The translations under genes were made by a program, and so were the position numbers. This document shows, one piece after another, positions 791 to 44,963 of a DNA stretch of 64,000 bases. Below the pieces are notes generated by a model. It did not search any database. It was not told the origin of the DNA and saw only the letters and a list, made by a program, of their open reading frames with translations. The DNA comes from Congeria kusceri. Lineage: Eukaryota; Mollusca; Bivalvia; Myida; Dreissenidae. Numbering within the stretch: the stretch's first letter is position 1; every line of letters begins with the position of its first letter. The stretch covers positions 20,320,480 to 20,384,479 of the forward strand of contig CM051034.1 of the NCBI GenBank assembly GCA_027627225.1, in the 5' to 3' direction.

Positions 791-1918
791 TACAGGTTAC
801 TCAGCGGACAGTTGACGCTACCGGCGTGTTCTAAGAATTCAACAAGAACTAAATGCATCGCAAAACTAACGTCACTACATACACAACGGTGAACTATTGA
901 ACAAAATCGTAATTAACTATACGACAATACGGACAAAGTTTAACACGCACTACTGTGATGACGTCATCAATGGAAAAATAAATCATTCGTACTCAATTAT
1001 TGTAATGCTTTTCAAATAAATGCACTAAACTTCAGTATACACCGATATGTTCATAGTTGCAAACGTTTCTACAAAAGTTTGGAACACACTTTAGTTGCTA
1101 TCTACACAACTTTGAACATGTCAATTTCAATATACAATTCCTTAATGGCGTCTCAAAACAATTCGGTGTCGCGTGTTCTTCGAATAAATCTATCGGTACG
1201 GTCAATTTGTGTGCTCCTTTTTAATAATATATACATTAACATATGTGTAATCTGTGTATTCATATTGAATAAAAAGGTCATGCCTCACTACGAAATGTAT
1301 GTAATATGGTATTATCCAGTCAACTTTTTTTAACTGTTCATGAACTCGTGTAATTGCCGGTTCAGCCAAATCAACGCTGCTCTTAATTTGTATCATAAAA
1401 TTTGCTGGATTGATGTAATGTTTAGAGAATCTTGGTATGATAAATACTGCCTTGCTGTGTGTAATGTATCAGGCAGTATTCTGTTTTTCTCTTTAACAAT
1501 GTCTTTTACGCCTGATTTCCTGAAACATAAACACTTAAAAAAAAAAATAGAACCAACGAGTCAGAGCGTCAAGTAACTTGCCCTTGCAAATACATGCGGT
1601 TGCATAAACATTCATTCACTGATCGTAATACAGTACATGCATATTTAAAATTGTTACAATCAAGCTTATCAGATATGAAATTTCCGTTATGTGTTTTTCG
1701 TTTACGTACGTCAACACGTTCTTTTTTTGTCTATATTGTAAAATGTTTGCACAAGCCTTACATTTCGGAATGTGTGTTTTGTATTTCTTCATCTTATTCA
1801 ATATGAATTAGAAATTAAACAAGTTATGTTTGCCTGAAATGAACGACCACATAACATGGGTGATTGAATACTGACCTAGGTCAGTTTGAATATCGATTGA
1901 TATCAATGGATACCATTA
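791..1918. other. No gene recognised
   Basis: AT-rich sequence with only short frames; none resembles a known protein and none shows convincing splice context. Confidence 0.5.
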
Positions 1919-1922
1919 TAAA

Positions 1923-2183
1923 TAGGAGGCGTGTCGAGGGAAAACCGGGCTTAATGCAAGTGCGTAAAGTGTCATCCCAGATTAGCCTGTGCAGTCCGCA
2001 CAGGTTAATCATGGACAACACTTTCCGCTTTTATGGTATTTTCTGTTTAAAACAAGTCCCTTCTAAACATAAATCCACTGTAGGCGGGAAGTGCCGTCTT
2101 GGATTAGCCTGTGTACAATCTAATGCGGGACGACACTTTGCGCACATGAAGTAAGCTCGGTTTTCCCTCGCCACGCCCTCATA
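1923..2183. mobile_element. Short palindromic MITE, copy 1
   Basis: Ends are inverted repeats: GGAGGCGTGTCGAGGGAAAA on the left and the complement of TTTTCCCTCGCCACGCCCTC on the right. The interior holds GATTAGCCTGTGCAGTCCGC and CTTTCCGCTTTTATGGTATT. The same element occurs at 12706-12937 and 61702-61928. It has no coding capacity and is non-autonomous. Confidence 0.85.
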
Positions 2184-2189
2184 TAAACA

Positions 2190-5100
2190 TTGTGAAGCTC
2201 CAGCCGCATCAGCAGAAACACAATGTCATTTATTAAAGTAACCAAAACAACACAGCACAATACAAAAACACGTTACACATAACACAAATATGAATAATAT
2301 TGGGGTCACCGCTGTAAAACGGTCAAATATAAGCGTTGTTGTTTTTTTTAAAATCCTACCTGGTTGAGTCGACCGCTCCTGGCCCGTACGTAGCCCCCGT
2401 CTGGTATTTCGAACCCTCTAAAGGTCACATTCAACGCGCAATTCGGGTCAATGGACAAAAAAGCATCTGCTGAGAAAGAAGACCTTACGCAAACTCTTAC
2501 ATATGTGTACACAGTGCATGAAGTACCACGCGACAAGGAAAGGTTAGTGTGACAATATAGAAGTATATTATTATTTACGAGATAATAATACATATAATAT
2601 TAAGTAAGACACATACCACCAATGTATATCTTTTATAAGTGTTTGATATTCATATGTTTGCTGTATTTAAGAACGCATGTTTGTTCAAGTAATATTGAAT
2701 ATATAGACAATAAGAAAATTGTTCGTATGCCCCCGTATTATGTTCACTTTCAGTATAATTTAATATTTGACAAAATACGTATAGTATGAGTGGCTCAATA
2801 TGTATTTCGTCGCCATTTTAAGGTAGCAACATTATAATGGATCAGTGTTATTGTGTCTTTAAATACACTAACCATAACCCCAGTTAATTTTGCAGTATGT
2901 AACATTCCGGCGCCATTGAACTCAAACGTTAGCATTTTTGCCACGAAGCAAATTTTTAAAGCAAAATATAAACTTACCGATATAAACGATACAGTGAAAT
3001 ATTCGTATAAAACGCAACATTATGGCTGTTTGTATTCGTATTGAAACAAAGCGTAACTTCGTCTCAATCTTTACGGAATTATCAATTAAGAATGCCGGCA
3101 CTTGGGATGCAGGTTTTATATAAAGTCTTATTTTCCGGTGTCGGGAACTCGACGAGAGGTTATCAGAGTGTTACATAAGCATGACCTAATATTTTGGTGT
3201 AGTTACTAACTGCCTAATTATGTTCTTGTAGTCCTTAAAAAAACTGTTTTAAATAGAGTGCAAACGACTTTAGGAGATATGTATTCAGTAGGAGTAAAAA
3301 TGCAACAACAATAAAAGTATGCACGATAATAATTTTCGAATGCAAGCCAGACCAAGCGCGAAACAGGCGATTTTTTAGTCCCGAAATAAAGAGCTATTTA
3401 CCGTCGAATATTTTGTAACAATAAGTTTGATTAGTTTGTCTAACTGTATTTGTATTTGTTTCTATACAATTACATTTTAGTTTATCTTAATATGGTTTGT
3501 TTATAATAATGTTTGATAAATTTATACACAATGTATAGTCCCCAATGTATACATACGTTTTTTGCTCATTTCACTTATTACGCAATGCTAAATTCTTCAC
3601 AGACTATACAGTGCCAATTTGTCAATGATAAGCTTATTATTCAGTAGCCTTGGAAACACTTTTATTTTGCAGTTATTGTGAAATTAAGCCAATAAATTTT
3701 GATACATAAATGAAAGGAAGCAAAAAAACTGGCGTTATAGGAATAGTGTCGTATTGGACTCGTACCAATGCACTAAAATAATCAAAGCGTAGAAACGCTC
3801 AAAGAAAACTGCCTTAACAAAAACTCGCTGTTTTTTTCTCTTGAATATTACCACATTTTTCAGTGGTTAATTAATATAGTATCAAATCTATTTGCTATAA
3901 CAAATGGTTTTCATTGGCGTGACTAATCTATTTTATATTTTATAAAAATCGTCTATATTCCTGGAAGATGAAACTATATATATTACGGTAAGTTTGCATC
4001 ATATTTTTGAATCAACGTAACACTGTTTGTGTTGTCTAGTATACGTATGACGATGTAATAATTATTCTTAATTTATTAGCAAAATATCATAAAAATACCC
4101 ACAATTTATTCATTTACACATTTAATTTCAGCTTCAAAACTTCTTTCATCTCTTCAGAACAAGCTAAACGAATGTTGTAGATTTTTTATTAATTTTATTA
4201 ATATTACGTTACCGCCAGTTAATTATCAAACGCAGTCCGCTGTCCTTTTTTATTATCGAACTTTATCAATTATATTCAGTTCTTCGAGTTCTTATCAAAC
4301 AAGTTCTTAACTATTCATTTCTCTACAGTTCTTAAAAGAAGTCCCACTACCTTTTTAACGGCAGCTCTTTTATACTAAGCTGGACGACGACAGATTTCCA
4401 AAAACGTCAACCCGCCAGATGTTACGACTTTAATTGTTTGAAGTGTGAGAGTGCACTGACAATTCATAAATATTGGGATGGTTTTCTGTATAAGTTTGCC
4501 AAATGATATAAAATGGCATAACGGTTTGACGAATATTCATGTAGGAATTTTGCAGCAGCCTTTGTTTCTACATATCAAGTAATTTTCCTTCGTAACCATG
4601 TGCATGTTATACGTGCATTGTTGCAGGCGAGTCAATACACTGTCACTGCGAGACAACATCCATTAAAAAGCCACCAAAAATTAATAATTATTAACTTATA
4701 ACGGATAAGTAAACATAATACCCACTATGTTACAATATGTTTAATATTGTGTTTATTCTAAAGTACTTTTTTAAATATTTTTTCCGATATGTTACGGTTA
4801 ATATTCAATATACATAATGTGCTTGTTTGATAAGTAATTGTGAAGTCAGTATTTGGCCATTCTGGGGCAAAGAAATCTTCTTAGAGATTACCCAATTGTT
4901 TACCACCTGCTTTATAAAAAGGAGCATACTTGACAAACATATTTATGCACAAAAAAATAGTTAATTTATGCTGAAAGGGATTGACTCCCTTGCTTCCAGA
5001 GTTGGGTTGTGTTATTGTTTAGTTTGTTAAACGATGTATAGACAGTTATTTTATGTTTATGAAACTATGTATTTTAAACTCTTAGATTTCAGTTGCCTCA

Positions 5101-20856: not shown

Positions 20857-21270
20857 GCCATCAGCCGATCGCATTCAAAGCTCACCTCACTGGCGCTTTG
20901 AGCCCTGGACCAAATCAGCGCATTGTTTACGACGACGTAAAACTGAATCTTGGCAACGCCTACCATCAACATTTTGGCGGCTTTCTTGCACCTTTCAACG
21001 GCACTTATTTGTTTTCTGTGTCCGCGTGCTCGCACAGTGGACATTACATTGTACTTGACCTGATGAATAATGGGACGTTGATAGGTAAAGTACTTGGTGG
21101 TGATACATATTACGACGATTGCTCTTCTGAGACCACAATAACTGAACTGAAAACAGGTTGACGAAGTGTATGTTCAACACCATGCAGTAAATGGCGATTA
21201 TATCTATGTTCATGAAATTGTACTGAATAGTTTTACTAGTTTTATTGGTGTGCTTTTGCAAATTGCGTAA
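20857..21270 (+). pseudogene. C1q domain exon, frameshifted, copy 1 of duplicated block
   Basis: Plus-strand C1q domain: HQPIAFKAHLTG, NQRIVYDDVKLNLGNAYHQHFGGFLAPFNG, VLDLMNNGTLIGKVLGGD, CSSETTITELKTG, then a one-base insertion (extra T at about 21158) that gives an immediate TGA. In the shifted frame the domain continues as GDEVYVQHHAVNGDYIYVHE...LNSFTSFIGVLLQIA with TAA at 21268. The expected acceptor AG before the histidine codon reads GG (20855-20856), so splicing is also lost. It is opposite in strand to the rest of the cluster and to the orphan exon 1 at 23071-23230. It is 414 nt because of three extra residues plus the insertion. Confidence 0.88.
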
Positions 21271-43657: not shown

Positions 43658-44963
43658 CTATATTACTTGTAAAAGTGCGCCTGTAAAGCTGTTGAGGATG
43701 TCCGGACTGACGTGAACCAAATCACCTGTAATCATATGGTGCTGAACATACACTTCGTCGCCTGCTTTCAGTACAGCGACAGTCGTCTCCGAGGAGCAGG
43801 CAATATAGACATTATCACCCGCAAGTACTCTGCCAATCATTGCTCCATTCCTCAGTAGGTCTAACACAATGTAGTGACCCGCTTGCGTGCATACAGATAT
43901 AGAAAACATGTAGGTGCCGTTCAAAGGGGCAATGAATCCTCCAAGATGCTGATGGTAAGCATTTCCAAGGTTTAGTTGTACATCGTCGAAAATGATGCGC
44001 TGATTTGGTCCTGGATTTACACCAGTAGACAAGTGGGCTTTAAAGGCAACAGGTGCATGATCTGCAGATTATAAATACACATGTAACCAATATACAGTTA
44101 TGTGTGTAAGGTGATGTGTGAACGAAGTGTGATAGGTGTTCACTGTCCTAATTGGTTATGAGCGTAATGTAATCCCCATACCAAGCTATCAATTAGCTAA
44201 CATGTCCATTTTTCTAGGAAGAAACCCAGCACATTCTTACAGTTGTCACCAGAGACTTCAGTCATTACATACTTAGAAATAGTAGCCTGCAAAGGAATAT
44301 TGTTGAAGTCATTTTGCCCTGCTTGGTAAGATTTGTATTTTATTTTTGTCTTACTGTATTTTGTTCTCTTACTTTATGCAGTTAACCTAGTTGCTTAATG
44401 AATTGTATTGTTGAATTTATTGTATAATTAAGTTATGCAATTTATAATATATTTAATGCATATTAATTATTGCATGTAATATATTTAATGCATAATCTCT
44501 ATTTTTCAGGTTTATTATTTTATATTTAAAATACTGGAATAAATATCGAAACTTTACAACGAGTTGACCTCATTCAACACCCCGTTACACACATAATAAA
44601 CAAAGGTTAAGCTATCACATAAATCAATAAATCAGCACTTAACAAAACTGAAAACACGTCGCATGGGTTTAAAAAAATTGCATTTATTTGATATATGCCG
44701 ACCGGTTTCGCCAAGCTCATCAGGGCATATCACATATAAATAATAACGTCAAAATTGTCAAAGTAACGACGTCAATTAACAGTCATTTAATGTAATTCAA
44801 TCATTGGTAATTACATAGAGACAAACTTACTGCATTTGGCCTCAAGTTTATCAAGTCGTTGTACGATTTCTGGAATGTCCACTTCTCCAACAAAGCGTTT
44901 TGTATGCTCTCTTGCCGAGACGAAAATCAACCCAACGGTAAAATATACAATTAGCAGTAGCAT
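43658..44963 (-). CDS. Secreted C1q domain-containing protein, intact two-exon gene
   Basis: Exon 1 is 44831-44963 (ATG at 44963) and exon 2 is 43658-44061. The intron has a GTAAGT donor and a CTGCAG acceptor, phase 1. The joined product is 178 aa. Residues 1-17 form a hydrophobic signal peptide (MLLLIVYFTVG...). Residues about 28-44 are a short amphipathic helix (DIPEIVQRLDKLEAKC). Residues 46-178 are a complete C1q domain with family landmarks VAFKAHLS, NQRIIFDDV, NLGNAYHQHLGGFIAPLNG, CSSETTV, GDEVYVQHH and LNSFTGALLQVI. C1q-domain proteins form trimers and bind ligands in innate immunity; in bivalves they are mostly secreted and lack collagen. No collagen repeat is present. This is the only fully intact member of the cluster. 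Its intron holds a hammerhead motif on the sense strand. Function beyond recognition or agglutination is inference. Confidence 0.9.
44690..44731 (-). ncRNA. Hammerhead ribozyme motif (minimal type I)
   Basis: Read on the minus strand from 44731: stem I 5' arm GATATGCC, core CTGATGA (44723-44717), short stem II GC-TTG-GC, core GAA with stem III ACC/GGT, cleavage triplet GTC ending at 44700, then stem I 3' arm GGCATAT(ATC). Stem I has seven consecutive Watson-Crick pairs. All conserved core positions of the hammerhead fold are present. Stem III is only three pairs with no loop, as in minimal hammerheads of Penelope-like retroelements, which may need dimers to cleave. It lies in the intron (44062-44830) of the intact C1q gene, same strand. 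No reverse transcriptase is nearby, so it is probably a retroelement remnant. Confidence 0.8.

Follow-up and report, generated by a model that had tools for sequence, protein, structure and literature searches.

Introduction

Minimal type I hammerhead motifs are dispersed in the non-coding DNA of animals (PMC7761336). Those without helix III have been described as parts of Penelope-like elements (PLEs) which may work as dimers, and cleavage of such dimers by way of a palindromic helix III has also been described (PMC7761336, PMC6155905, PMC6466107). In the account of PLE anatomy given by PMC11167929, a reverse transcriptase (RT) and a GIY-YIG endonuclease are encoded in one ORF, the pseudo-LTRs (pLTRs) are in tandem, the targets are AT-rich and the hammerhead sits at the boundary between pLTR and ORF. 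Among the bivalves, about 5000 type I hammerheads have been reported from the genome of a mussel, and PLE hammerheads of mussels are already published (PMC7229834). In two hard clam assemblies the share of Penelope elements is 0.36-0.50% (PMC8905726). A role of intronic hammerheads in splicing or intron decay has been proposed for the amniote genes RECK and C10orf118, and intronic hammerheads conserved among amniotes are reported (PMC3088659, PMC6155905). The literature that was searched held no report of a hammerhead from Dreissena or from the intron of a C1q gene.

The present study concerns a hammerhead motif in the intron of a C1q gene of Congeria kusceri. It lies in a stretch of 64 kb which was analysed as a whole and is called the window (C11:20320480-20384479). 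With the minimal type I hammerheads of PLEs (Cervera and de la Pena 2014; Lunse et al. 2017), the motif shares the core, the missing helix III loop and the palindromic helix III, and its family appears to share the association with pseudo-LTRs and the tandem copies within the element. It differs from them in its stem II, which has 2 bp and a 3-nt loop, and in that the window holds a single copy. Poseidon of Anolis carolinensis, PAc, would be alike in being a canonical PLE with GIY-YIG, a hammerhead pLTR and AT-rich targets; the ORF of PAc begins at stem II of the hammerhead, whereas the fragment found here is a non-coding tail (PMC11167929). The retrozymes of Mytilus galloprovincialis also present a type I hammerhead in many copies in a bivalve genome, but each of them is a non-autonomous repeat with a length of about 350-390 bp, and one such repeat, cloned from the genome, showed cleavage in vitro (PMC7229834). 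The hammerheads of RECK and C10orf118 resemble ours in lying on the sense strand of an intron and are thought to be repeat-derived; they stand apart as hammerheads that are reported to cleave in vitro and to have long been conserved (PMC3088659). It is argued below that the motif is very probably the hammerhead of a PLE, the copy in the window being a 5'-truncated and most likely neutral insertion of the element's tail in the C1q intron.

Anatomy and folding of the motif

Read on the minus strand from 44730 to 44693, the motif runs AUAUGCC / CUGAUGA / GCUUGGC / GAAACCGGUC / GGCAUAU. Its parts are listed in Table 1 together with the features of the gene around it. Every core position of a type I hammerhead is present, with CUGANGA ... 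GAAA ... UH in order and with stems I and II. Helix III has the form that is expected of minimal type I motifs, reduced or loopless and palindromic, as it consists of ACCGGU without a loop. The motif differs in this from the intronic hammerheads of amniotes, in which helix III is closed. The first-pass annotation of this DNA had described the ordered core elements on the minus strand, a seven-pair stem I, a short stem II and a missing stem III loop, and reading of the sequence bore out each of these. Its assignment of the motif to the minimal type I, PLE-like and dimer-dependent kind is likewise in keeping with the anatomy of helix III. By its letters, ACCGGU is predicted to require two RNA copies for its full closure, and we agree with that annotation that a lone copy should be weak, since its helix III cannot close in the monomer.

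Table 1. Positions in the window of the hammerhead motif, of the C1q gene that contains it and of the repeats in the intron
Feature	Position	Strand	Basis
Minimal type I hammerhead motif	44693..44730	minus	read from sequence
Stem I, 7 Watson-Crick pairs	44730-44724 with 44699-44693	minus	
CUGAUGA core	44723-44717	minus	
Stem II, 2 pairs and UUG loop	44716-44710	minus	
GAAACCGGUC core segment	44709-44700	minus	
Predicted cut site	between 44700 and 44699	minus	
Palindrome ACCGGU, helix III without a loop; could pair with another copy	44701..44706	minus	
C1q coding exon 1, signal-peptide-like start	44831..44963	minus	tblastn 44963-44832 and donor site
C1q intron, 769 nt	44062..44830	minus	GTAAGT donor from 44830, AG acceptor 44063-44062; neighbouring copies share the exon junctions
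C1q coding exon 2 with C1q domain	43658..44061	minus	ORF and Pfam
C1q stop codon	43660-43658	minus	
Dispersed-repeat fragment carrying the hammerhead, 149 bp	44640..44788	minus	alignments to other genomic copies
Possible second insertion, MITE-like, about 499 bp	44098..44596	minus	imperfect inverted ends of about 20 bp

The core patterns had a single match in the window, which is the hammerhead motif itself. A looser descriptor used in the window scan added one weak candidate at 4157 (three alternative foldings). Simulation with an order-3 Markov model gave 2 comparable motifs in 4000 windows when a stem I of at least 7 pairs and a short helix III were counted, and 0 when only Watson-Crick pairs were allowed. 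With any helix III allowed, the same model gave 15 motifs in 4000 simulated windows and an order-2 model gave 2 in 400.

A covariance-model search, which had been put forward as a check of the motif, did not turn out in its favour: Rfam gave no match at the gathering score and weak hammerhead matches below it. The best of the latter were Hammerhead_HH9 with 17.7 bits (E 0.18; cut-off 52) and RAGATH-1-hammerhead with 18.3 bits (E 2.5; cut-off 56.3). This miss says little, because a motif from a viral contig whose helix III is closed also falls under the Rfam cut-off (23.5 of 52 bits). The viral motif is type I hammerhead-like and lies in the IMG/VR contig IMGVR_UViG_3300037485_002668 (L001 24-93, minus strand); its sub-threshold score is to Hammerhead_HH9, with an E of 0.0021. 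Another match in a viral contig (L002) was taken as chance, its stem I being unpaired beside the core, and a third hammerhead pattern had no match in the viral contigs.

The local fold energy of the motif was ordinary as compared with that of shuffled sequences (z -0.28). Constrained to the hammerhead core fold, the monomer reached -8.6 kcal/mol; folded without constraint it has its minimum at -11.2 kcal/mol. A hammerhead fold of the dimer is possible at -23.3 kcal/mol, and the best alternative duplex is lower at -31.4 kcal/mol. The anatomy of the element and the published work on PLEs suggest that the motif could cleave as a dimer.

The C1q gene and its intron

The spliced protein of the gene matches Pfam C1q with 62.7 bits, and its best relatives are proteins of Dreissena polymorpha and Mya arenaria, to which it is 66% and 63% identical, respectively. 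The donor and acceptor positions confirm what had been stated at first, that the motif is in the 769-nt intron and has the sense orientation of the C1q gene. The cut site would be 130 nt past the donor.

Further C1q matches were found in the window by tblastn at about 9.6, 13.1, 20.9, 27.0, 33.1, 35.2, 40.4, 52.0, 52.7 and 59.2 kb. In the copies near 13.1 and 35.2 kb the C1q exons are open; exon 1 of one of them enters a minisatellite, and in the other a stop interrupts exon 1. The remaining copies show stops, frameshifts or partial matches in tblastn. The description of the focal gene as the only intact C1q gene thus holds roughly, at the level of tblastn, and has to be qualified for the open C1q exons at 13.1 and 35.2 kb. 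The hammerhead motif was present in none of the other C1q copies of this tblastn set. Pfam searches with nine other ORFs of the window, taken from those of at least 100 aa, found one weak C1q piece and two matches far under the cut-off; RT was absent among these nine.

The focal intron was aligned with the neighbouring C1q introns in order to mark the insertion, and past the first 20 nt or so they proved too diverged for this. The same intron may have received a second, MITE-like insertion. Its inverted arms (44098-44117 and 44577-44596) are 85% complementary, and its imperfect inverted ends carry TTATGTGTGTAA. The hammerhead falls outside it.

A dispersed repeat

With up to 3 mismatches, the 24-nt core of the motif is present in at least 119 places of the 1.549-Gb genome (54 forward and 65 reverse), at least 36 of which are exact. 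A control with the reversed pattern of this core found 0 places in the whole genome. All these genome counts are lower bounds, and as the copies of a repeat share descent, the count of at least 119 is by itself no proof that the motif functions. Thirty loci with an exact core were compared (L003-L032, the window copy being L031), and in all 29 of the others similarity to the window copy extends past the core. Where the alignments are at least 100 bp long and in the expected position, identity to the window fragment is 86-96%. The upstream start of the shared sequence differs from copy to copy, which is consistent with 5' truncation. Comparison by eye identified no target-site duplication around the window fragment. 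The initial claim of a notable intronic ribozyme belonging to the C1q gene is therefore not supported, as the motif sits in 149 bp that derive from a repeat dispersed in the genome.

A stem I of at least 6 pairs was kept in 17 of the 30 exact-core copies, the window copy included, and the intactness of the latter is for this reason no sign of selection. For a closer look at pairing, 73 distinct and closely related copies were obtained from 99 of the 119 places (36, 41 and 22 places with 0, 1 and 2 mismatches, respectively). In these copies the pairing of stem I did not exceed that of a shuffle control: 441 of 511 cells were paired as against a shuffle mean of 439.7, and the observed figure was reached in 694 of 2000 shuffles. 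Variation in the columns of stem I was 0.09-0.10 as against 0.14-0.20 in the outer flanks, which were compared ungapped and are inflated by indels. It should be noted here that all copies were chosen by their core, so that counts of conservation are biased; the columns of stem I were not part of the selection.

Inverted sister copies were seen next to some of the hammerhead copies. Identity between them (L003-L006 oriented 1050-2153; L035 oriented 2112-3052) and the adjoining hammerhead copies is about 70-72%; to the window fragment, the sister copy in L003-L006 is about 76% identical over 103 bp.

The parent element

Upstream of the hammerhead, the better-preserved copies have a frame reading YVLVC..C...YIGQTGDKLRNRR. 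With tblastn, 17 of the 30 exact-core loci matched this GIY-YIG-like frame, several of the matches being short, broken or rearranged in order or orientation; the other 13, the window's among them, had no GIY-YIG match. Where the frame is continuous it stops 97 nt short of the core, as the matches of L003-L006, L016, L017 and L032 do. Against the Pfam GIY-YIG domain (PF01541, cut-off 22.6), scores of 21.4 bits in L003, 23.2 bits in L026 and 25.8 bits in the inverted sister copy of L005 were obtained. When the GIY-YIG fragment of L026 was searched for relatives, 55 of 56 candidates were relatives at E <=0.001 and many of them carried a precomputed GIY-YIG domain; the one name displayed among them was 'hypothetical protein'. 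A second GIY-YIG-looking frame in L026, which probably belongs to another element, had no Pfam match, and a PDB search with the GIY-YIG fragment gave no useful match.

Frames reading LVSFDVINLYSNIPH and RYLDDCF in L034 and L035 are, we presume from their motifs, RT-like. They and the hammerhead copy are on opposite strands. In the inverted sister copy of L035, the YLDD-type frame continues into a homologue of the frames upstream of the hammerhead. Nothing above the Pfam cut-off was found for the RT-like frames of L034, L035 and L041, and a PDB search with the RT-like piece of L035 gave unrelated weak matches only.

A possible arrangement of the element is seen in L041. This locus has two exact cores, each in a 150-bp direct repeat (2827-2976 and 4712-4861), and the two repeats are 90% identical. 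The sequence between the cores holds a frame of 813 nt as well as a piece that reads IIIKKADKGGGIVVV. RT-like frames are presumed in this locus by their motifs; the 271-aa frame between the cores had no homologue at E 0.001. From its sequence we read this single locus as a pLTR-ORF-pLTR arrangement with a hammerhead in each repeat. The window copy is without coding sequence and comprises only the 149-bp non-coding tail. The search for full-length elements that had been suggested at the outset led to at least 119 core places and to GIY-YIG-like frames; the RT-like frames are without database support.

Frames that presumably resemble a second PLE lineage were also seen near the hammerhead copy in L009 (oriented 1838-3024). 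The one of them that was checked had no Pfam match above the cut-off.

Discussion

The assignment to a PLE is based on the dispersal of the repeat, the GIY-YIG-like frame upstream, the direct-repeat cores of L041, the varying 5' ends and the orientation of the copy. The published anatomy of PLEs fits these observations and was counted in favour of this assignment (PMC11167929). The parent element would encode an RT with a C-terminal GIY-YIG endonuclease and would bear hammerheads in its pseudo-LTRs. A product of reverse transcription that was cut short at its 5' end could have inserted in the first intron of the C1q gene, where it left 149 bp from the tail of the element in sense orientation. 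Within the element, tandem hammerheads on one RNA would pair through ACCGGU and cleave as a dimer. The C1q pre-mRNA would hold a lone copy, whose helix III is not expected to close by itself, and cleavage there would be slow or would not take place. The insertion is most likely neutral for the C1q gene, and the single copy in its intron probably has weak cleavage activity or none. The view of the lone copy as inert is weakened by the report of a PLE hammerhead that cleaves itself at 3-25 mM magnesium; the same source has one PLE hammerhead that showed no cleavage in vitro unless the protein of the element was present (PMC11167929). The ribozyme is most likely an ordinary relic of a transposon and not a new device for gene control. 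A new ribozyme specific to this gene was rejected, because the motif is part of a dispersed repeat, its helix III is unclosable in the monomer and intact copies are common.

A relic of a PLE could still have been kept by the host if cleavage of the C1q pre-mRNA tuned splicing or decay of the intron. The intactness of the window motif, its sense orientation and a cut site 130 nt after the donor would suit such a domesticated hammerhead, and so would the conservation of intronic hammerheads in amniotes (PMC3088659, PMC6155905). We consider it very unlikely. Against it stand the ordinary nature of this intactness (17 of the 30 exact-core copies keep at least 6 pairs of stem I), a helix III that is not predicted to close in the monomer and the restriction of the motif to a single one of the C1q copies that tblastn detected in the window. 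The inactivity in vitro of one PLE hammerhead deprived of the element's protein also speaks against domestication, and here again the self-cleavage at 3-25 mM magnesium cited by the same paper has to be kept in mind (PMC11167929).

The fragment could also be the tail of another family of retroelements that shares the hammerhead and is not a PLE. That the RT-like frames lack support from databases and that the L041 frame lacks a homologue at E 0.001 would be in accord with such a family. However, the better copies have the GIY-YIG-like frame directly upstream, and in canonical PLEs this domain is found beside the RT (PMC11167929). An origin from another family is accordingly judged to be very improbable.

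A further proposal grants the intact sense copy an activity in vivo, in which the C1q pre-mRNA would pair through ACCGGU with abundant transcripts of the element, bearers of the same motif, and be cut in trans. If this were true, expression of the element would lower or alter the expression of an immune gene. We give cleavage in trans only a very slight chance.

A retrozyme would consist of small tandem repeats that are non-autonomous, carry a type I hammerhead and give rise to circular RNA. Retrozymes with type I hammerheads are known in a mussel (PMC7229834), and in one locus of the present genome three cores follow each other at distances of 56 and 63 bp (C9:5466972-5467114). But the window copy is single, coding sequence of the GIY-YIG-like kind is upstream in the better copies, and helix III is of the PLE kind and not canonical. 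The tandem non-coding units of about 170-400 bp by which a retrozyme is known were not found, as the window has one motif and the flanks elsewhere are coding; membership in this class was rejected and is in our opinion extremely unlikely. The locus with three cores (L038 oriented 2910-3006) has two of them on one strand and one inverted, and the cluster adjoins a copy that bears GIY-YIG. A chance resemblance to a hammerhead, for which the low Rfam scores and a fold energy no better than that of shuffles could be quoted, was rejected as extremely unlikely in view of the 2 motifs in 4000 simulated windows and of the at least 119 dispersed copies as against 0 in the control.

Dimer-type minimal hammerheads are already published as parts of PLEs, and the hammerhead of the C1q intron is for this reason a known kind at a new address. 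The origin of what appeared to be a new ribozyme in the intron of an immune gene is settled, with the tail of a dispersed element as its most probable source. The bivalves gain a family of elements that carries a loopless, palindromic hammerhead in at least 119 core copies. In addition, one intact intronic copy offers a concrete case for asking whether ribozymes stranded by retroelements act on the pre-mRNA of their host.

The neighbourhood of the gene has a further peculiarity. Between 19277 and 34195 of the window a unit of 6111 bp is present three times in tandem, with matches to C1q exons at 20886, 26997 and 33108, and the same minisatellites recur there at a spacing of 6111 bp. This tandem triple is either a recent triplication or an effect of the assembly.
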